Origin: Phycisphaerae bacterium
Lineage (GTDB): Bacteria; Planctomycetota; Phycisphaerae; UBA1845
Assembly: GCA_013360585.1 (NCBI GenBank)
Contig: JABWBH010000015.1
Span: 1-64,000 of the forward strand
DNA: 64,000 nt
Direction: 5' to 3'
Positions 16,598 through 34,056 of the stretch are shown here, piece after piece. The position numbers and the translations under genes were made by a program. The notes under the pieces were generated by a model. It was not told the origin of the DNA and did not search any database. It saw only the letters and a program-made list of their open reading frames with translations. How positions within the stretch are numbered: position 1 is the stretch's first letter; the number at the start of each line of letters is the position of its first letter.

Positions 16598-18040
16598 CTA
16601 CCTCCCAGCCTGGGGCTGCTTCTCGGGGAGCGGCGGACCCTCCCAGTCCGACCCGAGTCGTCGCGGCCAGTAATCGTTCGGCGGCGGAGCGTTGCGGTCG
16701 CCGTCCGGACGGATGTGATCGAACAACGTGTCCTTCTGCTTGTCGTAGGCGACGCGGGCGTTCACCACCGTCCAGCGCACCAGCGTCATGTAATGCAGCA
16801 GGTCGCCGTCGGTGATGCAGAAATCCGCGTCTTTTCCGATCTCAATCGACCCGACGCGGTGATCGACGCCCAGCAGGCGCGCCGCGTCGATCGTAATCCC
16901 CCGGATCGCCTCCTCCTGCGGCAAACCTCCGCGCACCGCGAACGCCGCCTCCATGTTGAAGTGTGTCAGGTCTTCGCCGACGACGCCCCACGTCGAAACG
17001 CTCAACCCCGGCGGAAGGATCGCCGTCCGCACGCCGTAATTGTGCAGGATCGCCGCGTTCTCGATCGAAGACCCCGTCGGCCGCACGTGGCGCTCATCCA
17101 AGTCGACGCGCGTCCGCGGCGTCACGACCGCCGAGACGCCCGACCGCGCCAGGCGCGGTGCCATCGTCCACCCCTCGTACGCCCCGCGCACGACGATCCG
17201 GATCCCGTAGCGGTCCGCCAGCTCACACGCCTGATACAGGTCATGCGCCCGGTCCGCGCTGATCTCCGCCGCCACCTCGCCCTTAAGCAGCTTGAGATGC
17301 TTCTCGGCCTCGCCGCGGATCCACTTGTCGTCAGGCTTGACGGCGTTCTTGTTCGTCGCGGACTCGCGCTCGTACGCTTCCACCTTCCGCAGGTGATCGA
17401 CCAGCTTGTCCAGCGACTCTCGCAACCGCCGGCGCGCGTCCGGGCTTCGCGTCGAGTAATTCAGGTTCACCAGCGGTTCTTTCCGCACAATCATGTCCTC
17501 GACGCTGCCGAACGTCAGCTTCGCCACCGTATCCCCCGACATGCACGTCGTAATTCCCGCCGCCAGCGCCAGCGCCATGTTCAACGAGTAAACATCCGTG
17601 CCGTCAGACGGATCCGACCCGCCGTGGAACCCGGTTGCACGGAACGCCACCAGCCCCGGATAGACGTGATACCCCGTGGCGTCCAGCACTTCCGCATCCT
17701 TCGGAATCTCGACACCCGTCCCGATCGCATGAATCCGCCCGTTCCGACAGAGGATCGTCGCCCCGGAGAGATCGCCACCGCTGACCGTGTGTACGATGCC
17801 GCCCTTGACGGCGAAGAAGACCTCCTTTTCAGGCTCGACCGGTTCGTCATCCTTCTTCGGTTCATTTTCCGCAGGCGCGTTCGAGGCCGGGGGCGCGGAA
17901 CGCGGAGGACCGCCGCCGGGGCGCGGTCGCGGAGGCGGTTGTGAAAACGCCGGCGCCGCCGTCAGCAAGGCGACGCCGAGCGCCGCGACCCCTGAAATCC
18001 ACGGCGATCCTGAAAGCAACCGCTGCTTGCGTGCGCTCAT
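16598..18040 (-). CDS. Amidohydrolase-like exported protein, degenerate metal site (array member A)
   Basis: Signal peptide; PGLVAFRATGF at the HxH position; C-terminal RVGSIEIGKDADFCITDGD. Start overlaps the stop of the upstream gene as ATGA (18037-18040). Confidence 0.85.
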   Translation of the reverse strand: MSARKQRLLSGSPWISGVAALGVALLTAAPAFSQPPPRPRPGGGPPRSAPPASNAPAENEPKKDDEPVEPEKEVFFAVKGGIVHTVSGGDLSGATILCRNGRIHAIGTGVEIPKDAEVLDATGYHVYPGLVAFRATGFHGGSDPSDGTDVYSLNMALALAAGITTCMSGDTVAKLTFGSVEDMIVRKEPLVNLNYSTRSPDARRRLRESLDKLVDHLRKVEAYERESATNKNAVKPDDKWIRGEAEKHLKLLKGEVAAEISADRAHDLYQACELADRYGIRIVVRGAYEGWTMAPRLARSGVSAVVTPRTRVDLDERHVRPTGSSIENAAILHNYGVRTAILPPGLSVSTWGVVGEDLTHFNMEAAFAVRGGLPQEEAIRGITIDAARLLGVDHRVGSIEIGKDADFCITDGDLLHYMTLVRWTVVNARVAYDKQKDTLFDHIRPDGDRNAPPPNDYWPRRLGSDWEGPPLPEKQPQAGR

Positions 18041-19485
18041 CTCCGGCCGTCCTTCCGCTCGTACACGATCTCGCCCCCGATCATCACCTGCGTCACTTCG
18101 CTGCGCGGGTCCAGCGGATCACCGGACAGGAATACCAGGTCCGCGTCCCGGTCTTTCTCGATCGTCCCGAGACGATCCGCAACCCCCGCCGCTTCCGCCG
18201 CATGCGCCGTCACCGACTTCAAGGCATCCGCCCGCGCAAGCCCCCCACGAACCAGATCCGCCAGCCGCGAACGCACGCGGTCGAATTCCAGCGGCGCGTC
18301 CCACCACGGCGCACACGCCACCTTGCACCCGGCCTTCGTCAGTTCCGCCGCAAGGTTGTACTGCTCGACGGTCAGCGGCAGGTAGTAAATCGCCGGCGGA
18401 ACCACCACCAACGCCTTCTTCTCTCCCAGCGCCTTGACGACGTAGTCGTAATCGGACGCCCGGTTCGGGAGCCGCGCTCCCAGCCAATATACGCGCGGAA
18501 ATTCCTTGTGCGGTTTGAGGACATCCTCCGCATGAAGGTAATCCGACGCCTGATCCAGCTCGATGAAAAGCGGAACGTCGTACTTTTTCTGGATGAGGTC
18601 GATCAGCGGCAGATGCGCCGGATCCATCGCCGGCGGGACAAACTGCTCGGGTTCCTTCTTTTCACCCTCCTTCGGCGCTTCGACCGGAGGCGCTGCCCCA
18701 GGATCGCCGGGTTTCGGCGGAGACGGTTTCGGCGGCTGAGGTTTCTCCTCCGGTTTCGGCGGAGACGGCGCGGGCTTGTCGCCGGGTTTTGGTTCTTCAC
18801 CCTCTTTCTTCTGCTGCTCCTCCTGCTGCTTTTTCTCCGCCTCGGCCTTTTCCTTCTGCTTCTTCTCCCACTCCTGCCGCGCCTTTTCGACCTTGTCGAT
18901 CTCTTCCTGCGCCTTCTTCAGGGCGTTGCGCAAAGTGCCCTTGTCCGACGCCGGATCGGTCATGTCCACGCGAAGGTACGCCGCGTCCTTCACGCGCCGC
19001 GCCGATTCCGCTCCGCCCGTGCGCAGCACGCCCGCCACGCCCGCGATCCCGTCGCCGAAGGGGGTGTAACAGACCGCCGTGAACCCCGCTTCAAGAAGCT
19101 CCTCAAACTCGATCTGCGAAAGCACGACCTCATCCAGCGCTTTCAGATCGCCGCGCACGCCGGGCCGGTTGTATGACGGAAGCCCGAACCGCGTCCGCAC
19201 GTGAATCATCCCGGGCATGACGGTTTGCCCGCGGGCGTCGATCACCGTCGCCCCGTCGGGGTATTCGAGGTTCTGCCCGACGAGGCGCACCTTGCCGTCG
19301 GCGATCACGATCATCCCCGGCGCATACTCCTCGCCGCTGACTGTGATCACCCGCCCGGCGCGCACGACGACGAACTTCTCGTCATTGCCGACTTGGCCCG
19401 CCGCAATTCCCGTCGCAGGCACCGCGACGATGCACACGGCGCATACCGCGAAGCCTCTTTGTCGCATCCGCATCCGCATCCGCAT
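18037..19485 (-). CDS. Amidohydrolase-like exported protein, degenerate metal site, K/E/P-rich linker (array member B)
   Basis: PGMIHVRTRFG at the HxH position; C-terminal RLGTIEKDRDADLVFLSGDPLDPRSEVTQVMIGGEIVYE. Confidence 0.85.
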   Translation of the reverse strand: MRMRMRMRQRGFAVCAVCIVAVPATGIAAGQVGNDEKFVVVRAGRVITVSGEEYAPGMIVIADGKVRLVGQNLEYPDGATVIDARGQTVMPGMIHVRTRFGLPSYNRPGVRGDLKALDEVVLSQIEFEELLEAGFTAVCYTPFGDGIAGVAGVLRTGGAESARRVKDAAYLRVDMTDPASDKGTLRNALKKAQEEIDKVEKARQEWEKKQKEKAEAEKKQQEEQQKKEGEEPKPGDKPAPSPPKPEEKPQPPKPSPPKPGDPGAAPPVEAPKEGEKKEPEQFVPPAMDPAHLPLIDLIQKKYDVPLFIELDQASDYLHAEDVLKPHKEFPRVYWLGARLPNRASDYDYVVKALGEKKALVVVPPAIYYLPLTVEQYNLAAELTKAGCKVACAPWWDAPLEFDRVRSRLADLVRGGLARADALKSVTAHAAEAAGVADRLGTIEKDRDADLVFLSGDPLDPRSEVTQVMIGGEIVYERKDGRR

Positions 19486-19533
19486 GAAACACCCTTCCTG
19501 CGTCGGGTTTCCGTCCCTGCTGCCCGCTGCCGC

Positions 19534-20811
19534 CTACCACCGCCGGCGCACGTTCGCGTCGTAAACGATCCGCCCCCCGATCACCGTCATCTCGCACGCG
19601 CTGCGCGTGTCCAGCGGATCTCCGGTCCAGACTCCGAACTCCGCCTGCTTGCCCGCCTCGATCGTTCCGATCTGGTCGTCCAGCAGCAGCGCCTCCGCCG
19701 GGATCCGCGTCAGCCCCTTGATCCCCTCATACGGAACCCACCCGTAGTAGCAGCCCATCGCCGCCTGAAACGGAAGCTGCTCCTGCGCCACCACCGGCGC
19801 GTCCGTGTTGATTCCCAGCAGCGGGTTCCCCGCTTGCCACCACCGCGCCGCGTTCCCGTGAATTTTCCGCTGCGTGCCGTCCAGGTGATACGCCCGCGGA
19901 CCCTGGATCGTGTAAATGCTCCGCCCCGCCGCGAGCGCCTCGCGGATCAGCGGCGCCACCTTCCACCCGTCGAACTCGCTGTGATCCAGAACCGTCCGCA
20001 GATCCATCTTCCGCGCCAGCATGTCCACCGTGGTCATCACCACCTGGTAGATCTGCGTATGCACCGACGCCACGAACTCTTTCCTGAACAACCCCCGAAA
20101 GCCGTCGAAGATCGGGTCGAACGCCGGCTTCTCCGTCGCCTCCCCGCGCTCGAACTTCTCCCACGCCTCGTGATAGGCCTGCGCCTTCTCCAGCGTCTGC
20201 CGCGTGTTGAAGTTCATGAACATCCGCCCGACGCCCCACCAGTACCGCTCAGGGTTGCCCGCCTGCGCCACCTTGATCGATCCCGGCGATCGCACCACCA
20301 CGTCGGACACGCTCTGTCCCGCTGTCTTCGATATCGTCCCGAACCCGCTGATGTTCGTCCCGCTCCCGGGGATCAGCAGCACCGTCGTCACGCCCCCGGC
20401 CCGCGCCATCCACATGTCGTCGCTTTCCGGCTGCACCGTGTTCAGCGTGTCCAGTCCGGGGTTCGTCAGGTACACCATGTCGTTCAGGTCGGACAGTGAT
20501 CCGGCGGTGTGATTGTGACAGTCCACAAAACCCGGAACGATCCAGTGACGCGGCATGTCGATCCGCCGATACCCCTGCGGAATCGCCACATCGCTCGCTT
20601 TCCCTACCTTTTCGATCCGCCCGCCGGATACGAGGACCACGGCGTTGTTGATCACCGTGTCCGCCTTGTCCATCACCAGCACTTTGCCGACGACGAACGC
20701 CAGTTTCGGCGGTTCCTCCGCCCGCGCAACACCCGTCAGCAGCGCCAGCGCCCCGACGAGGGCGACCGTCCCCACGCGTCGCGTCTTGCCTCTTGCCTGC
20801 TGCCTTATCAT
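19534..20811 (-). CDS. Amidohydrolase family protein, apparently intact metal ligands (array member C)
   Basis: PGFVDCHNHTAG (HxH), SVHTQ, LDHSEFDGW, GINTDAPVV, IGTIEAGKQAEFGVWTGDPLDTRS. Start overlaps the upstream stop as ATGA (20808-20811). Confidence 0.9.
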   Translation of the reverse strand: MIRQQARGKTRRVGTVALVGALALLTGVARAEEPPKLAFVVGKVLVMDKADTVINNAVVLVSGGRIEKVGKASDVAIPQGYRRIDMPRHWIVPGFVDCHNHTAGSLSDLNDMVYLTNPGLDTLNTVQPESDDMWMARAGGVTTVLLIPGSGTNISGFGTISKTAGQSVSDVVVRSPGSIKVAQAGNPERYWWGVGRMFMNFNTRQTLEKAQAYHEAWEKFERGEATEKPAFDPIFDGFRGLFRKEFVASVHTQIYQVVMTTVDMLARKMDLRTVLDHSEFDGWKVAPLIREALAAGRSIYTIQGPRAYHLDGTQRKIHGNAARWWQAGNPLLGINTDAPVVAQEQLPFQAAMGCYYGWVPYEGIKGLTRIPAEALLLDDQIGTIEAGKQAEFGVWTGDPLDTRSACEMTVIGGRIVYDANVRRRW

Positions 20812-23642
20812 CGCACTTCCTCCCCGTTGATGATCACGCGCCGCACCGACGTCCCGGCCTCAAAGGGCGGACCGTCGAAGATCACCAGATCACCGTCGCG
20901 CCCGGGCTCCAGCGAACCCACCCGGTCGTCGAGGCGCAGCAGGCGCGCCGCGTTCGTTGTCAGCGCCGCCAGCGCCGCCTCCGCAGACATCCCGCGCTCG
21001 ACCGCGTACATCCCCACCTCGCGCAACGAACGCGCCCCGTCCTCCGCGTCACTCTGAAACGCCACGGCGACGCCCGCCCGCGAAAGATCGTCCCCCTGCA
21101 CATAAGGGACATATTGCCGCGTGCGAACCACGTTCACCGGCAGGATCACCCCGACTTTCTTCTCCGCCAGTCTCGCCGCATGCACCGATGCCTCTTCCGC
21201 ATCAACCAGCGTCAGCGGCAGCTCGAACTCCTCGGCAATCAGCTTCACCACCGCGTCAATCTGGGTATGCGCCGAAACCCGCACCACCGCAGGGATCTTT
21301 TTTTCCAGCAGCAGCTTCAGAGGCTCCAACCCTTCATCCACTTTCGGCGCAAGCGGTCGCCCGTCCTTGCCGCGCGTCTTCGATCGTTCCACTTTGAACT
21401 CAACCGGTTTCTTCTCGACGCGCTCGCCTTCCACGTTGACCGTGATGCCCATGAAACGAATAACGCCGGTCATGTGGTCCGCCCGATCCAGCGTCAGCTC
21501 GAACTCGGGGTACCCGTTGCCCTGCGTGTCTACCTCGATCTGGCCTTTGATCCCTTTCTCGCCGTCGAACGTGCCGGTAATTTTGTGATCCACCGGAACC
21601 GCCGGCTCGACCACCCGACCTTCGATCTGCGTACCTGTCAGGCGCAGCGCGACCTTGCCGGTCTCGGGGTTCGGCAGCGGTCCCCCCGAAAGCGTCCCCG
21701 ACCAGGTTCCGGTGATCGGGTCGTCGTCCTTGACCTCCGTCGTCTGCTCTTTCTCTGCGGGCTTCGCCTCAGCCGCTTGCCCGCTCTTCTGCTTTTCCTC
21801 CCACTCCTTCAGCTCTTTCTCGTACTTCTGCCAGCTTTCCAGGTACTTCTTCCCAGCCTCGAGGCGCTTCTTGAGCTGCTCCGCCGCCGCGGGCGGGTCC
21901 GTATCCGAGACGTCGAAAATCAGCGCCGCCGTGTCACGGATGACCCGGTCCGCCCGCGACCGCCCGCCCGACTTGATCGCCGAAACCTGCGCCCCGGTCG
22001 TTCCGCCGCCCCGGTAAGGAGATAGGGCCACAGTCGTGACGCCCGCCGCCGCCGTCCGCAGATCGGTCACGTCCGGCGCTCCGATCGCTTTCGACAGCTT
22101 CACGTCAGGTCCGGGACTCCCGCCGTCTCCGCGCAACCCGAGGTGCCCGCGCGCGTCAATGAACCCCGGCGTTACCACCGCATCGTCGCCCGCGTCGACC
22201 ACCTTCGCATAAGGTGGGCGCGGAACCGCGCGCCCCACCGCCGCCACTTTCCCCCCCTCGATCAGAACTTCCCCGCCTTCGATCACGCGATCCGGGCTGA
22301 CCCAGACCGTCCCCGCCCGCACCACCAGCGCACCTTCCGAAGGAGGCTCAAACGCCGTCGTGCCCCGCACGTACACCTTTCGAACATGCGTCGTCGTCGA
22401 AAGCGGATCTCCCGAGAGCACCAGCAGATCCGCGTCCTTGCCCGGCGCAAGGCTTCCGATCCGGTCGCCGACGCCGAGGATCTCCGCGGCGCGCCGCGTC
22501 ACGCCCTCAATGACCCGCCGCTCATCCAACCCCGCCCGCAGCGACGTCGCCGCTGCCAGCCGCATGTCACTAAGGTCGTGCCCCTCCCCCACCGTCAACG
22601 CCAGAGGAATCTCGGGAAGCCCCTCAAGAACCTCCACCCTGCGAGCCAGCACGTCCGGGTGCGCCCCGAGATTGCCCGCGGGACGCCCAGTCTGAAGCGG
22701 AACCTCGAACACCAGCGGCAGCTTCGCCGCCGCCAGCTCCGCTCCCACGTCGTTCACCTCCCCACCGCTGACCACCACGCCGCCTTTGCGATCCCGCAGG
22801 AACTCGATCGCCTGGCGAAGATCGCCAGCCCGATCCGCCCGAACCCGCATCCCTCCTCCAGCGGAAATCCAGGCGCCCAGCGCCCGACGGTGAAAATCGA
22901 ATACGGCTGCATCCGGCGTCGGCGACAGAGCTGACTCCAACGCCGCACGCACCGTCGGCTGCTGTCCCAGCCGCGAATCCGGCGCCTGCCGCCGACCCGG
23001 CTCGATCGCCACATCCGAGGACGCCGGAAAGATGTAATTGAAATCCAGCGGCGGCGAGTACGCCGATTCAAGAAAATTCAACTGAAGCGCGGACCGCTCA
23101 GACAGAACTCGCTCCGCCGGCGCCCCCCCCAGCCGCACCACCGCCCCCACCCCGCTGATCAACCGGTGACGCCCGGGATCCAGATGCACAGCCGTCACGC
23201 CTCCGGCCAGAATCACTCGGTAGTCCGCATATGCATCAAACGCATCGACCGCCGAATACGCGCCGCTGACCGACTCCACCCCGCGATGAAACCCCGCAAG
23301 ATCGCACGCCGCTGCGATCATCCCCGGCATCACCGTCTCATCCGGAAACGACGCCACCGGCAGGTCCGGCGGAATCACCACCTCTCCCTCAGCGCCGATC
23401 GCCTCGATCCGGCCGTCCCGGATCACGATCACGCCACCCTCGATCACCCACGGAACCCCGTCCGCAACCGGCATCACTCGACCGGCGCGAATCACCAGCG
23501 ACCCCCCGCGTTCCGGCGGATACGCCGTCGTCGCGGCCGTGATCCAGAAAAACGCCGCGCATCCCAGCAAGGCCAGGCCCGGGATCTTCCGACCCGCGCC
23601 GACGCGCCGCGCACTGGCAGGAATGTTTTCCCGGTCAGGCAT
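20808..23642 (-). CDS. Two-domain fused amidohydrolase-like exported protein (array member D, about 944 aa)
   Basis: Two copies of the family pattern: domain 1 PGMIAAACDLAG...RIGSLAPGKDADLLVLSGDPL; domain 2 PGFIDARGHLG...RVGSLEPGRDGDLVIFDGPPF. ATG at 23642 overlaps the stop of the upstream gene by 8 nt. Confidence 0.85.
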   Translation of the reverse strand: MPDRENIPASARRVGAGRKIPGLALLGCAAFFWITAATTAYPPERGGSLVIRAGRVMPVADGVPWVIEGGVIVIRDGRIEAIGAEGEVVIPPDLPVASFPDETVMPGMIAAACDLAGFHRGVESVSGAYSAVDAFDAYADYRVILAGGVTAVHLDPGRHRLISGVGAVVRLGGAPAERVLSERSALQLNFLESAYSPPLDFNYIFPASSDVAIEPGRRQAPDSRLGQQPTVRAALESALSPTPDAAVFDFHRRALGAWISAGGGMRVRADRAGDLRQAIEFLRDRKGGVVVSGGEVNDVGAELAAAKLPLVFEVPLQTGRPAGNLGAHPDVLARRVEVLEGLPEIPLALTVGEGHDLSDMRLAAATSLRAGLDERRVIEGVTRRAAEILGVGDRIGSLAPGKDADLLVLSGDPLSTTTHVRKVYVRGTTAFEPPSEGALVVRAGTVWVSPDRVIEGGEVLIEGGKVAAVGRAVPRPPYAKVVDAGDDAVVTPGFIDARGHLGLRGDGGSPGPDVKLSKAIGAPDVTDLRTAAAGVTTVALSPYRGGGTTGAQVSAIKSGGRSRADRVIRDTAALIFDVSDTDPPAAAEQLKKRLEAGKKYLESWQKYEKELKEWEEKQKSGQAAEAKPAEKEQTTEVKDDDPITGTWSGTLSGGPLPNPETGKVALRLTGTQIEGRVVEPAVPVDHKITGTFDGEKGIKGQIEVDTQGNGYPEFELTLDRADHMTGVIRFMGITVNVEGERVEKKPVEFKVERSKTRGKDGRPLAPKVDEGLEPLKLLLEKKIPAVVRVSAHTQIDAVVKLIAEEFELPLTLVDAEEASVHAARLAEKKVGVILPVNVVRTRQYVPYVQGDDLSRAGVAVAFQSDAEDGARSLREVGMYAVERGMSAEAALAALTTNAARLLRLDDRVGSLEPGRDGDLVIFDGPPFEAGTSVRRVIINGEEVR

Positions 23643-25257
23643 CCGGACCTCCCTTGCTTTTTGCATTGTCCTTCCGCCGACGTGATTCAGCGCGGTCCGC
23701 CCGATCTGACGCCCGCTCAACCGAAGCGTCGTCGTCGCCCGGCTCCGGAGACGGCGGCGGCGGCGCGGGCGAGTCCGGCTTGCTTTCTTCCTTGTTCTCA
23801 GGCTTCGCGGGATCCGAGGCGCCACTGCCGGCCTCCGGTTTGTCTCCTTGATGCGCTGGATCCGAAGCCGCAGAGTCGCCCGCAGGCTCCTTCGGTTTCT
23901 CCTCGGCGCCCGGCTCCTCCAGCAACCGCCGGATGCGAACGTCCTTCGCCCGGTCGTAAGCAAGGATGCCGTCGATGTACACCTGCTCCACCCAGGTGTT
24001 GAAGTCCAGCGGGTCGCCGCCGTATACGACGACGTTGCCCGCCTTCCCGATCTCCAGCGATCCGAGCGCGTCCCCCAGACCGAGCATCTTCGCCGGGTTG
24101 ATCGTGATCGCCGCCAGCGCCGTCTCCCGCGCCACGCCCTCTCGGATGCACCGCGCCGCCTGATACGTCAGATAGCGCTCCGCCAACGACGCATCCGGAT
24201 GCGGAAGCATCGCAAACGTCAGCCCCGCGTCGGCGATCACCTTCGGAACAAACGTCTCCGACAGTTTCCCCGTCAGCGGATCGCGCTCCCGGAAATCCAG
24301 GTTCACGTCCAGCACCACCGGACGCCCGGCCACCTTCAACTCGTCCACCGCCTTGAACGTGTCCGGCCCGAGCACGAACACCACCCGCTCGAAGAACCCG
24401 TTTTCCTTCGCGAACTTCACGGCGGGCCCGACATCCGTCGCCGCCCCCACGTACACCCACGCATCCAGCCGTCCCTGCGAAAGCTCGTGAAGGTTCGCGT
24501 GAGCGTCGTCATAATCCTGCGGTCGGATCAGCTCCGCGCCGCGCTTTCGCGCCTCCGCCGGCCCCACGTCGACGTCCTTTTTGAGCTTCTTCTGCTCCTC
24601 CTCGTAGCGCTGCTCCGCCAGCCGCTCCCGGTAGTCCGCCAACTCCGCGAACGCCTCCCGCAGGATCGCCCACTGCGCCATCCGGTCGTACCCGCCCTTC
24701 GGCGACGCCGATATCTTGACGGCGGCGCGCGGCTTCACCGTCATCTCGTCCACATCCAGCCCGATCGGACGCACCACCCGGCTGATTCCGCCGATGACGC
24801 AGTTGTTCGCCTGAATAATGTGAACCGTCGTCACCCCGTCGCGCAGGCTGTTCTCGAAAAACAATCGCGACGGATCGATCGCGTCGTACACGTCCAGCGC
24901 CGCCCCGATGTCGAGGTTCTCATTCGGAATGTCCAGCCCCTGCCAGTCGTGCGCGTTGACCAGCCCGGGAAAAAGAACTTTGCCGGAAACGTCCACCTCC
25001 ATCGCGTCAAAGGGCAGCTCGACGGAGGCCCCCACCGCCGTGATCTTCCCGTGCTCGATCAGGATCGTGCCCTTCTCGATCTCCGGACCTACGACCGGTA
25101 CGATCCGCCCCCCGGTCAACGCGATCTTCGTCGGCGGACTCGCTTCCACGCTGACCGCCGCGAGCGCAATGACCGCCATCGCGGCGCGCCACGCCCCCGT
25201 CCGCCGCATCCCACGACTCTCGGTTCTCCTCACGCTGCGCCTCCGAACTTGCTTCAA
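23635..25257 (-). CDS. Amidohydrolase-like exported protein, partial metal site (array member E)
   Basis: PGLVNAHDWQG; ALGSLEIGKAGNVVVYGGDPLDFNTWVEQVYIDG. Start may be the internal ATG at 25209. Confidence 0.85.
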   Translation of the reverse strand: MKQVRRRSVRRTESRGMRRTGAWRAAMAVIALAAVSVEASPPTKIALTGGRIVPVVGPEIEKGTILIEHGKITAVGASVELPFDAMEVDVSGKVLFPGLVNAHDWQGLDIPNENLDIGAALDVYDAIDPSRLFFENSLRDGVTTVHIIQANNCVIGGISRVVRPIGLDVDEMTVKPRAAVKISASPKGGYDRMAQWAILREAFAELADYRERLAEQRYEEEQKKLKKDVDVGPAEARKRGAELIRPQDYDDAHANLHELSQGRLDAWVYVGAATDVGPAVKFAKENGFFERVVFVLGPDTFKAVDELKVAGRPVVLDVNLDFRERDPLTGKLSETFVPKVIADAGLTFAMLPHPDASLAERYLTYQAARCIREGVARETALAAITINPAKMLGLGDALGSLEIGKAGNVVVYGGDPLDFNTWVEQVYIDGILAYDRAKDVRIRRLLEEPGAEEKPKEPAGDSAASDPAHQGDKPEAGSGASDPAKPENKEESKPDSPAPPPPSPEPGDDDASVERASDRADRAESRRRKDNAKSKGGPDA

Positions 25258-25308
25258 GTCTTTGCCCGCTTTCCCGATTTCTTCTCGCTTTTCTTCTCGC
25301 TCGCGAGC

Positions 25309-26898
25309 CTAACCCGGCCGACGATCCACCTGAACGCGCCCCCCAACGACCACCACCACCGGACGTGATGTCGCCGCAAAAGGCGCCCCGCTCCAGACAA
25401 TCACGTCCGCCCGCTTGCCCGCCTCGATCGTGCCGGTGTCGCCGTCAATCCCCAGCAGTTTCGCCGGCGTCGCCGTCACGCTGCGAACCACGTCGTCAAG
25501 CTCCGCCCCGAACCGCCGAGCGTACATCGCCTGCCTCGCCAACCCGTCCTCGTCACGCAGCTCCTGCGCGCTCAGCGCCGTCTCGATCCCCGCGTCCAGC
25601 AGCGCCTTGAACGTGTGCAGCCGGGCCCCCGCCGCCTCTCCCGACCAGCCCCGCCGCCCCGGCGCCTGCTCGTAGATCGGACCGAAAACGACCGGAACTC
25701 CGCGATCCTTTAACGCGCCAAGGCACTCGTACGCCTGCGTCCCTTCCTCAAGGGTGAAGGACAATCCCAGCTCGTCGCTCAGACGCAGCGCCGCCTCGAT
25801 GTCGTGCTGCATCCGCGCCTGAATCCGCAGCGGAATCTCGCCTTTCAACACGCCGATCAGGTAGGGCATCGCCTCCACCGGCGGCGCGTCCGCACCGTGT
25901 ATCCCCACGCCGTCAGCCCACCGCTGCGCGTCGTAAAACGCCTTCCGGAACACCCACGCCACGCCCATCCGGGTCGTCGGACGCCGCGTGTACATGCTCG
26001 CCGGGCCCCGAAAAGGCAACCGGTTCCCCGCTCCGACCCGGTAGGAATCCGAACCCATCACGGCCCGAACCGCCGACTCCGGTTTGACAACGCGCGACGC
26101 GGCATCCCCTCCAGTGCGAAGGATCGCGCCTCGCGAACTGATCACGGCGCCAGGGTCGCCGCCGACGTAGACCGTCGTGACGCCTTGCGACAACAACCGC
26201 GAAAAATCCGGCGCGTTCAAGTCGATCGCGTCCAGCGCCCGGGTGTGCGGAATCACCTCCGCCGCGTGCTCCGTCTGACTCAGCCCGACGCGCACTCCCG
26301 CCGCAGTCGTCAGCTCGTCGTGCATCAACGCCCCGCCGCACAAAAAGCAGGACGAGTGATCGTAGCCAGCCTCAACGTGCGCATCCGCGCTCAGGTAGCC
26401 GAATCCGGCGCCGGCGGTCACCGTCGCCGGATCCGCGGAATGAACGTGAGCATGAGTGTGATCGCCTGCGCCACCGTGTTCGCCTTTGTCTCCGCCTTCG
26501 ACTTCGACGTCGCTCGACGCCGCCGCGCTCCCGGGCGACGGCGCATGCCCCAGCGACAGCGTCGGCGTCGGCATCAGGTCATACGAATCCACCGCCGCGT
26601 TCGCGTCGATCAGACCCGGCGTGACGTTCGCGCCCGCGAGTTCGATGACCGTCGCGTCCGCCGGAATCTCCACGCCGGACCCCACCGCCGCGATCCGTCC
26701 TCCGCGGATGACGATAGCGCCGCCCTCGACCGTCCGCCCGTCGCCCAGGTGAATCACGGCCGCCTTGACGACCAGCGCCTTATCCGCGTCACCCTGCCCC
26801 GCGACGGGTGTCGTCGCTGCGGCAAGCAACGTCGCCGCCAGCAATCCACGCAACCCGCTCCGTCTTCGCGGCTTATTCCGTCTGCAATGCGGCGTCAT
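25309..26898 (-). CDS. Amidohydrolase-like exported protein with His-rich insert, degenerate metal site (array member F)
   Basis: PGLIDANAAVD; insert GDHTHAHVHSAD and DHSSCFLCGGALMHDE; TGTIEAGKRADVIVWSGAPF. Confidence 0.85.
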   Translation of the reverse strand: MTPHCRRNKPRRRSGLRGLLAATLLAAATTPVAGQGDADKALVVKAAVIHLGDGRTVEGGAIVIRGGRIAAVGSGVEIPADATVIELAGANVTPGLIDANAAVDSYDLMPTPTLSLGHAPSPGSAAASSDVEVEGGDKGEHGGAGDHTHAHVHSADPATVTAGAGFGYLSADAHVEAGYDHSSCFLCGGALMHDELTTAAGVRVGLSQTEHAAEVIPHTRALDAIDLNAPDFSRLLSQGVTTVYVGGDPGAVISSRGAILRTGGDAASRVVKPESAVRAVMGSDSYRVGAGNRLPFRGPASMYTRRPTTRMGVAWVFRKAFYDAQRWADGVGIHGADAPPVEAMPYLIGVLKGEIPLRIQARMQHDIEAALRLSDELGLSFTLEEGTQAYECLGALKDRGVPVVFGPIYEQAPGRRGWSGEAAGARLHTFKALLDAGIETALSAQELRDEDGLARQAMYARRFGAELDDVVRSVTATPAKLLGIDGDTGTIEAGKRADVIVWSGAPFAATSRPVVVVVGGRVQVDRRPG

Positions 26899-28075
26899 AC
26901 ACTTTCACCCCCTTGACGTAGACCTCGAGCACGCGCGACTCCAACCGCAGAGGATCCCCGGAGAACACGACAAAATCCGCGTCCTTCCCCTTCTCAATTG
27001 ATCCGACGCGCTCCGCGACTCCCGCAACCTTCGCCGGATTGATCGTGATCGCCCGCCGCGCCGCCGACGCGTCCAGCCCGTAACGCACCGCCAGCGCCGC
27101 ACTGATCCGCAATGAATCCGCAGGCGCATAAGGCAAAGCGCCCGCGAACACGACTTCCTTCCCTCCCGCCGCCAGCAGCCCGGCGGTCCGGAGCACGCGC
27201 GGCGTCGTCGCAAACGTCATCGTGTCCAGCACAACCGGCCCCTCGAACGACGACATCCACGCCGATTCCGCTTCGACGTCCGTCGGCGTGTACGCCAGGC
27301 GCGCCTTGATTGGTGCGCCGCCCAGCAATCTTGCGGCAGCCGCCAGATCCTCCGCCGCTTCGCACATCATCAGAACGTCAAGCTGACCGCGCGCCGCCGC
27401 GCGCATCCGCGCCGGTCCCTCTCCGCGCTTCCCTTGAGACAGCGCCGACTCCAGCAGCGTCACCGCCCCGATCCGTGAGGTCGGCTCACGGTCGAACTCA
27501 AGCACCGACTGTCCCAACGTCATCACCAGCGGACCGTCCTCGCGCAGCCACTCCGCTTCCCCGCCGGCGCCGATCCTCACCGCCTGCGCCGCCCCCCCCA
27601 CGACGTTGTTCCCCGCCGGAACGATCAACGCCGCTGTCACGCCCGTGCGCAGCGCCGACGCGAAATCACGATGCCGCACGTCGATCGCCTCTCGGAGACT
27701 CAACTCCGGAGCGATCGCCACCGATCGTTCAACATGACGCCCCAGCGAGGCCACCCCCAACGCTGAGCGCGCATCAATGAGGCCCGGGCAAAGAACCGCG
27801 CCGGAATGATTCACAACGCCGTCAGCCGCCGGAGCCGATGCCGCTGCGCTGATCTCGCGAAAACGCCCGCCTTCGACGACCACCGTGCTGGCGCCGCCGA
27901 TCGACCCGTCCGGAAGAACAACTCCTCCGGCGGCAATCGTCACGCGATCCGCACCGTGCGCCGCAATGCACGACACACCCGCCGTCAAACACGCTGCGAC
28001 GATCCGACTCCCGCCCCGGGACGTTCGCAGCATCCGCCTGCCCTGCCTCCGCATGCGCCGATCGTCGAGCCTCAT
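26873..28075 (-). CDS. Amidohydrolase-like protein, degenerate metal site (array member G)
   Basis: PGLIDARSALG; ITINPAKVAGVAERVGSIEKGKDADFVVFSGDPL. Start overlaps the upstream stop as ATGA (28072-28075). Confidence 0.85.
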   Translation of the reverse strand: MRLDDRRMRRQGRRMLRTSRGGSRIVAACLTAGVSCIAAHGADRVTIAAGGVVLPDGSIGGASTVVVEGGRFREISAAASAPAADGVVNHSGAVLCPGLIDARSALGVASLGRHVERSVAIAPELSLREAIDVRHRDFASALRTGVTAALIVPAGNNVVGGAAQAVRIGAGGEAEWLREDGPLVMTLGQSVLEFDREPTSRIGAVTLLESALSQGKRGEGPARMRAAARGQLDVLMMCEAAEDLAAAARLLGGAPIKARLAYTPTDVEAESAWMSSFEGPVVLDTMTFATTPRVLRTAGLLAAGGKEVVFAGALPYAPADSLRISAALAVRYGLDASAARRAITINPAKVAGVAERVGSIEKGKDADFVVFSGDPLRLESRVLEVYVKGVKVYDAALQTE

Positions 28076-29727
28076 TTGTCCGCCTTCACCTCGTAAACCA
28101 CCTTGCCGCCCGCGTACACCCGCTCGACCACCGAAGACGGATCGTGCGGGTCTCCCGACCAGATAACCAGGTCCGCCCGCGCGCCGCGAGCCACGCGACC
28201 GGCGCCCTCCAGCCCGAGAAGCCGCGCCGCACGCGTCGTCACCAGTTCAAGCGGCGACGCCCCGCTCTCTTCAAGCGCCCCGGCCGTCAACTGCGCGTTC
28301 GCCAGAACAAAACGAGACTCCTGCACGCCCCCGCCGCTGCCGACCGCCCAACGCACGCCCACCTTCGACAGCCGCGCCGCGCTCGTCGCCACGTGACGCC
28401 GAAACTCGTTATCCGCCCGAAGCTCCGGGCGTTGCGCCGGACCGAGCACCACCGGCGCCTTCGCCTTCGCGATTTCGTCCGCGACCAGGTAAGCCTCCGT
28501 CGCCCCCTCCAGAATCAGATCAAGATTGAATTCCTGCGCCAGCTCCAGCGCGTTGAGAATGTCCTCGCTGCGGTGCGCCTCGATCCGAACCGGAAGCTTC
28601 CGATCCAGCGCCTTCAGGAGAACTTCCTTGCCCCGATCCGGTTTCGGCTCCGCGGGCTTCTTGATCTCCTCTTCTTTCTTGGCGTCCCCCGCCGCACCTG
28701 GCGCCGGAGGCGCGTCCGCGAACATCGCCTCGTCCCCGGACATAAGACTGCGGAACAGGTCCGCCGGATCGTCCGACGGAGCTTCGCCAGCGGTATCCTC
28801 AGATGCGCCCGTGGCGCCGTCCGCGCCGCCGGGCGACGGCCGAGGCGGTCCGGGGCGGGGACCGGGGCGCGGACCTTCGGGCTTCGGGGCGTCCGGTTTC
28901 GGCTCAGCGGGCTTCTCGTCCTTCTTATCCGGAGGCTTCGGATCCGCCTCCTTCTTTTCGCCTCCGGATTTCGCTTTTTCCGCTTCTTCCTTCGCCTTCT
29001 TTTCGGCGCGTTCCTTGATTTTCTTCTCGTATTCCTCGAGGTCCGCCTTGTAATCCTCAAGAGATTTGCGGTACTCCAGCGCCTCGCGGAGCTGACGGCG
29101 CAGGTTGTTGAACGTGTTGATCCGAGCAAGCGCGGATTGCCCAGACCCGAGGTTGACGTGCAGTGCGACGTCTTCCTTGATCGCCGACCCGGCTCGACCG
29201 GACTCCGGGCGCCCGAGTGAGAAGATCGCGCTCGTCCCGAGCACGCCGACCGGTCCGCGCGGTGCGACGTACACCGTCGTCACGCCGTTGCGCAGCGCGT
29301 CCTGGAACACGTCCGCCGCGTAGGCGTCCCACCCGTCGGCCGCCTTCGACAGCGCGTTGGCGGCGCCACCGCCCGAGATGATTCCCAGTCCGCTGTAAAC
29401 GTCGATGAAACCAGGCGTGACCGTCTTTCCGGTCGCATCGAAGGACTTGCCCAGAATCCCCGCTTTGACATCCGCGCCCACGTCGCCGATCCGGTCGCCG
29501 CGGATTGAAATCCCGCCCTTCTCAATGACGCGACCGTCTCCGGTCAGAATCCGCGCATGTTCGATCGTCTCGCCGCCACCTAACCCGAACAACTGCCCCT
29601 GCACCGGAACCGTCGTCGAAGCGACAATCAACAAGATGACGAAGCAATACGGGGTAGGCAGGCGCCCTGAACGAGAATTCGTCTCACGCCTCAAACGCAG
29701 TGCGCGACGCAGTTGCTTGAACGTCAC
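28072..29727 (-). CDS. Amidohydrolase-like exported protein, degenerate metal site, charged/PKP linker (array member H, first gene of the run)
   Basis: PGFIDVYSGLG; LPVRIEAHRSEDILNALELAQEFNLDLILEGATEAY; ARADLVIWSGDPHDPSSVVERVYAGGKVVYE. Confidence 0.85.
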   Translation of the reverse strand: MTFKQLRRALRLRRETNSRSGRLPTPYCFVILLIVASTTVPVQGQLFGLGGGETIEHARILTGDGRVIEKGGISIRGDRIGDVGADVKAGILGKSFDATGKTVTPGFIDVYSGLGIISGGGAANALSKAADGWDAYAADVFQDALRNGVTTVYVAPRGPVGVLGTSAIFSLGRPESGRAGSAIKEDVALHVNLGSGQSALARINTFNNLRRQLREALEYRKSLEDYKADLEEYEKKIKERAEKKAKEEAEKAKSGGEKKEADPKPPDKKDEKPAEPKPDAPKPEGPRPGPRPGPPRPSPGGADGATGASEDTAGEAPSDDPADLFRSLMSGDEAMFADAPPAPGAAGDAKKEEEIKKPAEPKPDRGKEVLLKALDRKLPVRIEAHRSEDILNALELAQEFNLDLILEGATEAYLVADEIAKAKAPVVLGPAQRPELRADNEFRRHVATSAARLSKVGVRWAVGSGGGVQESRFVLANAQLTAGALEESGASPLELVTTRAARLLGLEGAGRVARGARADLVIWSGDPHDPSSVVERVYAGGKVVYEVKADK

Positions 29728-30212: not shown

Positions 30213-31679
30213 ATGAACCTGCCTGAAATCCGCGTCACGCGCGATGCAAGTGTCACGTTATCGGCACTCCTCTGCGGAGTCCTTCTCGGTTGCACGCCGA
30301 ATATCGACGATCTGGTGGCCGCCGCCGTCGACGAGGCGCTGGCCGGACGCCCCGTCCCCGGCGGCGAGGACGGCGCTCCCGGCGCTGCGGGACGCAACTG
30401 CTGGGATCTCGACGCCGACGGCGAGAACGACCCCGAGGAAGACCTTAACGGCGACGGGAGCTTCAACGCCCTCGACTGCACCGGCCAGTCCGGTCCGCCC
30501 GGCGAAGATGGCGCGGACGGCGAAGATGGCGCGCCGGGATCGCCCGGCGTTGCCTGCTGGGATCTCAACGCCGACGGCGTCGCCCAGCTCGACGCCGAAG
30601 ACACCAACGAGGACGGGGTGGTCGATGTGTTCGACTGCCGCGGCGACACCGGACCGGGCGGCTCCAGCGGCGAACCAGGCGCGGACTTCCCCGCAGGCAG
30701 CATCCTGGTGACCGACTCTGCGACCCCGCCCGCCGGGTTCGCCTACACCGGCCTGAGTCTTTCCGAAGGCGGAGGCTGGGACGCCCGCGCGGCCCTGCCG
30801 CAAGGGCTTCAGACGGCTTCCGCCGCTGCTGCAATGAACGACCGCGTCTACGTCTTCGGCGGTTACGCCGGCGGCGGCAACAACGGATTCCTCAATACCG
30901 TGTACGAGTTCAACCCCGGCAATAACACCTGGTCCCCCCGCGCGCCGATGCCCACGCCGCGTGCCGAGAGCGCGGCCGTGGCGCTCGACGGGCTTATTTA
31001 TGTGATCGGCGGGTACAACGGCGTCTCCGCCGCTCTCGCTGTCGTTGAGGTGTACGATCCGGTCGCCGATGCGTGGTCGGCGGGGACGCCGCTCCAGACT
31101 CCGCGAGACTACCCCGCCGCGGCCGTCCTCGACGGTGCAATTCACGTCTTCGGCGGCTGGGACGGACTTGCTTACTCAAAGACGCTTGAGGCGTATGACC
31201 CGGTCGCGGGAACCTGGTCCTTCAAAGCGCCGATGTCCGTCGCCCGTTACGGCGCGGGCGCCGCCGTGCTCGACGGAAAGCTGTATGCGCTCGGCGGATA
31301 TTCCGGCGCTTCCGATGAGCGGACCGTCGAGGTCTACGACCCGGGCGCCAACACCTGGACCTCGCGCTCGTGGATGCACGCACCGCGCGAGGGGATGGGC
31401 GTCGTCGTCAGCAACGGGCGCATCTATGTCGTCGGCGGGTTCAGCGACGTCGGCGGGGTCGTCCGCATCCTTGACAGCGTTGAGGAATATGACCCGATCG
31501 CCGAACTCTGGACGCCGTCCACGCCGCTGCGCACCCCGCGCGCCAATCTTGCCTCGGCGGCGACTTCCGAGGGTCTTTACATCTGCGGCGGGACCGACCG
31601 CTTCCCGGGCACGACTTATCTTTCCCGCGTGGAGGTGTTCACGCCGCCGACCATCTTGTATCTGCATGAGAAGCAGTAG
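30213..31679 (+). CDS. Kelch-repeat lipoprotein with collagen-like and EF-hand-like N-terminal segments
   Basis: Lipobox LLGC; GQSGPPGEDGADGEDGAPGSPG; CWDLDADG/CWDLNADG repeats; repeated RVYVFGGY, IYVIGGYNG, IHVFGGWDG, LYALGGYSG, IYVVGGFSD, LYICGG kelch blades. Confidence 0.88.
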   Translation: MNLPEIRVTRDASVTLSALLCGVLLGCTPNIDDLVAAAVDEALAGRPVPGGEDGAPGAAGRNCWDLDADGENDPEEDLNGDGSFNALDCTGQSGPPGEDGADGEDGAPGSPGVACWDLNADGVAQLDAEDTNEDGVVDVFDCRGDTGPGGSSGEPGADFPAGSILVTDSATPPAGFAYTGLSLSEGGGWDARAALPQGLQTASAAAAMNDRVYVFGGYAGGGNNGFLNTVYEFNPGNNTWSPRAPMPTPRAESAAVALDGLIYVIGGYNGVSAALAVVEVYDPVADAWSAGTPLQTPRDYPAAAVLDGAIHVFGGWDGLAYSKTLEAYDPVAGTWSFKAPMSVARYGAGAAVLDGKLYALGGYSGASDERTVEVYDPGANTWTSRSWMHAPREGMGVVVSNGRIYVVGGFSDVGGVVRILDSVEEYDPIAELWTPSTPLRTPRANLASAATSEGLYICGGTDRFPGTTYLSRVEVFTPPTILYLHEKQ

Positions 31680-33136: not shown

Positions 33137-33715
33137 CTACTCCTGCGGCGGGCGCAGCGCCTCGACGCTCGGAAGATCCTTCAACGACGACAGTCCGAAC
33201 GTCTCGAGAAACTTCGTCGTCGTCCCGTAAAGCAGGGGGCGACCGAGTTCCTCCGCGCGACCGACGATCTTCACGAGGTTCATCTCCCGCAGTCGCGCCA
33301 AGACTTCGCCGGAGCTGACGCCGCGGATCGAATCCACCTGCGCCCGCATCGCCGGCTGCTTGTACGCCACCACCGCCAGCGTCTCCAGCGCCGCCGGCGA
33401 CAGCCGCATGTCGCGGCGCACCGCGACAAGCTGCGACACCCAGCGGTCGAACGTCGGGAGGGTCATCATCTGATACCCCCGGGCGATCGCCTCGATCCGG
33501 AACGCGGCGCCGGACTGCTCGTATTTGCGGTTCAGAGCCTCGACGCACTCGCGGACCGACTCCGCCGACGCCTCGACGATCTGCGCAATCCGCGACGCCG
33601 GGACGGGCCGGTCGGACGCAAAGAGCAGCGCCTCCACGACGGTCTGAACGTCCACCGCCGGCGCCTCCGGGACTCCGCCTGTTTCCGCCGTATCCGCAGT
33701 GATAGCCTGTGTCAT
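33137..33715 (-). CDS. scpB: Segregation and condensation protein B
   Basis: VEALLFASDRPVPASRIAQIV...LSPAALETLAVVAYKQPAMRAQVDSIRGVSS...GRPLLYGTTTKFLETFGLSSLKDLP; ATG at 33715. Confidence 0.93.
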   Translation of the reverse strand: MTQAITADTAETGGVPEAPAVDVQTVVEALLFASDRPVPASRIAQIVEASAESVRECVEALNRKYEQSGAAFRIEAIARGYQMMTLPTFDRWVSQLVAVRRDMRLSPAALETLAVVAYKQPAMRAQVDSIRGVSSGEVLARLREMNLVKIVGRAEELGRPLLYGTTTKFLETFGLSSLKDLPSVEALRPPQE

Positions 33716-34056
33716 CGCCGAGCATCTTACCGGACGCCTTCCGTCAATTCGAGTCGCCGGATGAACCTGCCCGGTCTCCTCATTTCCGAGTGTCCGCGTC
33801 CGCCAGGTCCGCCCCCTTTTGACACTCGTCCGGTATTCACCCCGCAGCTCCGGTCCGCGCGGCGGCAGGTCGGGCAGGCTCCGCATTTTCCCGCCGAAGA
33901 TAAGCGGGTTTCTTAAGCTGTTTTTGTCGATATCCGGGAGTCGGAGTGCTCAGGGCCCGTGCCGGGACGGCGTCGGTCCCGCGTGCATTCCCGCGGCTGC
34001 CGCCGACGGATCGCCGCAACCCGGGATCGGCCAACCGGTGCGCCGGGTCGGTCACG

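Follow-up and report, generated by a model that had tools for sequence, protein, structure and literature searches.

The window analysed here, a 64,000-nt stretch of DNA from a Phycisphaerae bacterium (contig JABWBH010000015.1), carries on its minus strand an array of eight consecutive ORFs, transcribed in the order H-G-F-E-D-C-B-A and encoding nine domains (Table 1). All eight proteins match the Pfam families Amidohydro_1/Amidohydro_3 above the curated cut-offs. Consecutive genes overlap by 4 nt (H/G, D/C and B/A), 26 nt (G/F) or 32 nt (E/D; 8 nt if the second ATG is used), and gaps of about 50 nt and of 48 nt separate F from E and C from B, respectively. The original prediction, drawn from the sequence alone, had described overlaps of 4 to 26 nt or short gaps; the presence of both is upheld, with the minor correction that two of the gaps measure about 50 nt. 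A scan for promoters and terminators yielded nothing useful.

Table 1. Positions of the array genes, their domains and two upstream genes, in window coordinates
Feature	Coordinates	Strand	Triplet at HxH position	Description
ScpB gene	33137-33886			Upstream of the array
Kelch-repeat protein gene	30213-31679	+		Just upstream of the operon, opposite strand; weak collagen-like stretch
Gene H	28072-29727	-	YSG	Putatively exported pseudo-amidohydrolase, first gene; K/E/P-rich insert; 3ooq match 2.3e-31; ligand positions YSG/E/G/G
Gene G	26873-28075	-	RSA	Putatively exported pseudo-amidohydrolase; Pfam Amidohydro_1 8.4e-12
Gene F	25309-26898	-	NAA	Putatively exported pseudo-amidohydrolase; 3ooq match 2.4e-35; ligand columns re-fixed in the order
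Gene E	23635-25257	-	HDW	Putatively exported pseudo-amidohydrolase; 3ooq match 1.4e-37 over its length; other ligand His absent
Gene D	20808-23666	-		Double pseudo-amidohydrolase, D1 then D2
Domain D1	about 22338-23501	-	ACD	First domain of D
Domain D2	about 20808-22337	-	RGH	Second domain of D
D2 insert domain	21402-21722 (approximate)	-		Beta-rich, starts DPITGTW; conserved in D orthologues
Gene C	19534-20811	-	HNH	Metal site complete, unlike in any other member: H99, H101, H251, H277, D337, beta-4 Lys
Gene B	18037-19485	-	RTR	Putatively exported pseudo-amidohydrolase; K/E/P-rich insert; Pfam match
Gene A	16598-18040	-	RAT	Putatively exported pseudo-amidohydrolase, last gene; 3ooq match 4.8e-18

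A signal-peptide-like stretch is found at the start of each array protein, and in most orthologues as well; this call depends on a hydropathy heuristic, which some sequences fail. Long K/E-rich inserts, which are also P-rich in B and H, interrupt the barrels of B, D2 and H, and in the structure model part of the D2 insert (residues 536-572) forms a long helix that may serve as an interaction arm. The beta-rich insert of D2 has no Pfam match.

Regarding the flanks, the Kelch-repeat gene is not conserved beside the array elsewhere. The ScpB gene, upstream of the array in the window, is found directly upstream at three more loci within the family, four in total; this adjacency suggests one inherited chromosomal site and is a sign of shared position only. 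No partner gene was conserved in the flanks across the loci examined, so that the gene set is self-contained, with no obligate neighbour.

Metal ligands and fold of the nine domains

The triplets read by the original prediction at the HxH position were correct in all nine domains, as were the additional ligand substitutions that it had reported for F and H. A catalytic member is expected to carry HxH, two further His and an Asp; C meets this expectation, and A, B, D1, D2 and E to H do not. The claim that eight of the nine domains have lost the HxH ligands is accordingly maintained, with the qualification that D2 keeps the second His and E usually the first, the full set never being retained. 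For brevity, domains with and without the complete site are called here live and dead. In the 20 genomes compared, every C domain (29/29) had the complete set of four ligand His, against none of the 160 other array domains; moreover, the His ligands, the Asp and the beta-4 Lys of C were invariant in 18 orthologues, with the Asp invariant in the order. This Lys occurs in 29/29 C domains phylum-wide and in 37/37 live domains, a set comprising C, 3ooq and the live domains of the two related proteins described below, whereas in the dead groups it is scattered, except in E, where it is common (17/20). The G protein of three genomes, which has HSH at the first position, was considered as a second live member in relatives and rejected, the other ligands being absent.

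The reading of the dead domains as pseudoenzymes would have failed had the ligands been supplied elsewhere in each protein. Such relocated ligands were sought, and no dead group has a His or Cys conserved at a frequency of at least 90%; therefore, the metal site has not moved. Different dead groups lack different ligands, and their former ligand columns have had different fates: within the order, these are fixed to Q, R and E in F and to G and G in H, while several of those in A, B and G drift freely. Given this variability, the pockets of A, B and G may be doing nothing. Some dead members could nonetheless be enzymes with a different active site, either metal-independent or relocated, a possibility to which the conservation of E and F (94 and 65 invariant columns in the order, respectively, E being among the best conserved dead members) and the frequent beta-4 Lys of E lend some support. 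We regard it as improbable, considering the absence of conserved His or Cys from every dead group, the group-specific ligand losses and the free variation in A, B and G.

All members searched (C, D, E, F, H and A) have the Thermotoga maritima amidohydrolase 3ooq, presumably locus TM0814, as their best PDB match, and membership in the 3ooq-type branch of the amidohydrolase superfamily is met by both sequence and fold homology. According to the structure model of D, in which both domains are dead (mean pLDDT 87.7, pTM 0.75), the fold is predicted to be retained after loss of the metal site, as the model aligns to 3ooq with a TM-score of 0.79-0.81 by target length. C modelled alone gave a poor result (pLDDT 59), and 3ooq was still its first structural match. 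A named function could not be taken from NCBIfam, where no model reaches its cut-off; C scored 62.5 against the Xaa-Pro dipeptidase model NF051886 (cut-off 500) and 43.9 against the imidazolonepropionase model TIGR01224 (cut-off 298).

Conservation and history across Planctomycetota

When relatives were searched with C and their loci inspected, the identical eight genes in identical order were recovered within the genus, within the family and in further families of the order; the named records that hold these arrays are metagenome-assembled genomes of Phycisphaerae and other Planctomycetota. We further applied a C profile to a draw of 393 genomes from throughout the phylum and read the loci in 35 of the 105 C-positive genomes. 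Beyond the close relatives, this added 22 families and other classes, for 25 families overall, and the order H-G-F-E-D1-D2-C-B-A holds wherever the contig is long enough, with a position-by-position check in 19 loci. The recurrence of this nine-domain order, and of its pattern of live and dead members, in orthologous loci throughout the phylum is far more than chance would give. Had the array been syntenic in no relative, the original prediction would have been refuted; the opposite was found. Outside Planctomycetota, the scan of genome collections used a lone protein query, which reaches close relatives only.

The members also occur together. Among the 393 genomes, C was detected in 105, D in 104 and both in 102, the mismatches being mostly fragmented or incomplete assemblies; 100 of the 105 genomes with C also have A, three of the five exceptions lying at contig ends. 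The A profile separates the array from its paralogues, its best match being 3e-67 or better in array genomes and 6e-62 or worse in genomes with paralogues only. In one genome the operon is split between two contigs, the first with H-G-F-E-D and the second with C-B-A, and all nine domains are kept. In some lineages C is present in 2-5 tandem copies (observed at eight loci), with HxH kept where read, while the dead members remain single.

In a tree built without the ligand columns, the domains group by array position, one clade for each, and bootstrap support is 98-100% except for H. A 207-domain tree labelled by gene position alone required 20 label changes, where 14 is the minimum and shuffled labels need 153. 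Since every position is its own clade, the full nine-domain set predates, and is ancestral to, the families sampled. As to selection, dN/dS of every gene was 0.065-0.25 between close relatives and 0.19-0.37 against a more distant congener, and no internal stop was found in the window genes or in the close relatives tested. As judged from these data, the reading frames are intact and purifying selection acts on them. The loss of catalytic residues from eight of the nine copies could suggest a run of decaying duplicates of C; this reading is refuted by the open frames, by the strong purifying selection and by the orthology of each copy across families with its order kept, and we attach practically no weight to it. 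The argument of the original prediction against simple decay is hence borne out, and relatives carry the whole array with dN/dS of 0.07-0.37, rather than the single intact copies and relaxed selection that would have contradicted it.

Two further kinds of protein of the same 3ooq-type family were observed. One is a two-gene unit, read in the window's genome and at three other loci and kept in relatives, in which one protein has all ligands and the other lacks them. The other is a triple-domain protein of about 1,400-1,530 aa with a dead-live-dead arrangement, read in the window's genome and at two other loci. The window's genome carries both, and so do its relatives. With one intact metal site and one or two dead partners, the pair and the triple show the same live-plus-dead logic as the array; in contrast to its nine domains, they have only two or three, which form clades separate from the array groups.

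The trees differ in how often catalysis was lost. A quick tree and the 207-row FastTree tree without ligand columns each imply one live-to-dead change, whereas a careful tree without those columns requires two, with one change in only 54% of bootstraps; a single transition was therefore not upheld. Owing to this disagreement, an early partnership of a live and a dead protein, which would later have grown to eight dead parts, is plausible but not proven.

A proposed exported assembly and its relation to known systems

We propose that the operon encodes an exported hetero-oligomeric amidohydrolase, with C as its sole catalytic subunit and the eight pseudoenzyme domains arranged around it, export and assembly being inferred; we give this reading a probability of roughly 0.6. 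All members would be periplasmic or extracytoplasmic, as suggested by the signal-peptide heuristic. C would be a 3ooq-type TIM-barrel hydrolase that depends on metal, and the eight other domains, having kept the fold and lost the metal site, would occupy fixed places around it and may supply architecture, substrate capture or regulation. The dependence of C on the other members, as well as the order of the subunits, is inferred. One pattern expected of a hetero-oligomer, namely dead paralogues conserved as distinct orthologous subunits together with a live partner, is met. Furthermore, the original prediction of a pseudoenzyme set built around one active member is supported by synteny, co-occurrence, fusions and the retention of all members at the split locus, although physical assembly remains an inference. 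Regarding the fusions, D1 and D2 are joined in every D read, H is fused to G at loci from three additional families, one of which has H-G-F as a single fusion, and E is fused to D in one genome; these fusions of neighbours, along with the universal D1-D2 fusion, suggest contact between subunits.

The same data admit a looser arrangement, in which the eight dead proteins would be separate exported binders that capture, carry or sense related ligands and feed C without forming a single complex. The pockets do differ between groups, as illustrated by the invariant residues of F and H, and all members appear exported by the hydropathy heuristic. Nevertheless, the operon has no conserved neighbour that could serve as a transporter, sensor or other partner, the fusions point to contact, and the set stays together over deep divergence, which leads us to consider this arrangement unlikely, although not negligible. 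Several points also weigh against the hetero-oligomer. There is no direct evidence of subunit contact, the indications being limited to the fusions of neighbours and to the split locus that keeps all members; gene order and co-occurrence would also fit separately acting proteins that are needed together; and the duplication of C (2-5 times in some families), not shared by the dead members, is hard to reconcile with a rigid 1:8 stoichiometry unless the copies of C are interchangeable. The variable former ligand columns of A, B and G, the poor model of C alone and the reliance of export on a heuristic count against it as well. A broader reading would be a phylum-wide exported machine, with nine different domains of one TIM-barrel enzyme family in a fixed arrangement; C, the single kind of catalytic subunit, would be swapped or multiplied while the eight pseudoenzymes stay constant as its scaffold, and the whole would go back to an ancient live-plus-dead pair; we advance this only tentatively, as somewhat short of an even chance.

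We found no paper on the array, on TM0814 or on amidohydrolase pseudoenzymes of Planctomycetota, in a search that covered neither preprints nor the majority of subscription papers. Known pseudoenzyme subunits come one at a time or a few together; for one live plus eight dead paralogous domains that keep their order throughout a phylum, we found no earlier description. The array offers a case of early loss of catalysis, after which the dead copies persisted as separate parts, and this makes the purpose of pseudoenzymes testable; it also provides a candidate function for a large conserved gene set of Planctomycetota that matches only generic amidohydrolase models.

Among known proteins, 3ooq is the closest to the array, both by sequence and by the fold of the C and D models, and has the same ligand set as C. 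Its metal site is complete, whereas in the array eight of nine homologues encoded in one operon lack it; 3ooq is known as a structure only, with no function assigned. The CRMPs (dihydropyrimidinase-related proteins) are non-catalytic proteins with an amidohydrolase fold, and they appear among the weaker matches of the D profile, far below 3ooq; unlike the array members, they are animal proteins with no live partner in an operon. The chloroplast Clp core combines catalytic ClpP and non-catalytic ClpR subunits, and is a precedent for the array in that live and dead paralogues are kept together as distinct subunits; it is, however, an unrelated protease whose tetradecamer was established by others, while assembly of the array has not been shown (PMC6508832). 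Within the amidohydrolase superfamily itself, Pseudomonas ATCase includes an inactive dihydroorotase homologue (pDHO) that lacks the zinc ligands and is needed for both assembly and activity (PMC7053772). By analogy, pDHO would constitute a precedent for dead chains that serve a live partner, with an amidohydrolase fold, lost zinc ligands and an inactive chain required by its partner (PMC7053772); in ATCase that partner is an unrelated enzyme with a single kind of dead chain beside it, whereas the array comprises one live and eight distinct dead domains, all of them paralogues.
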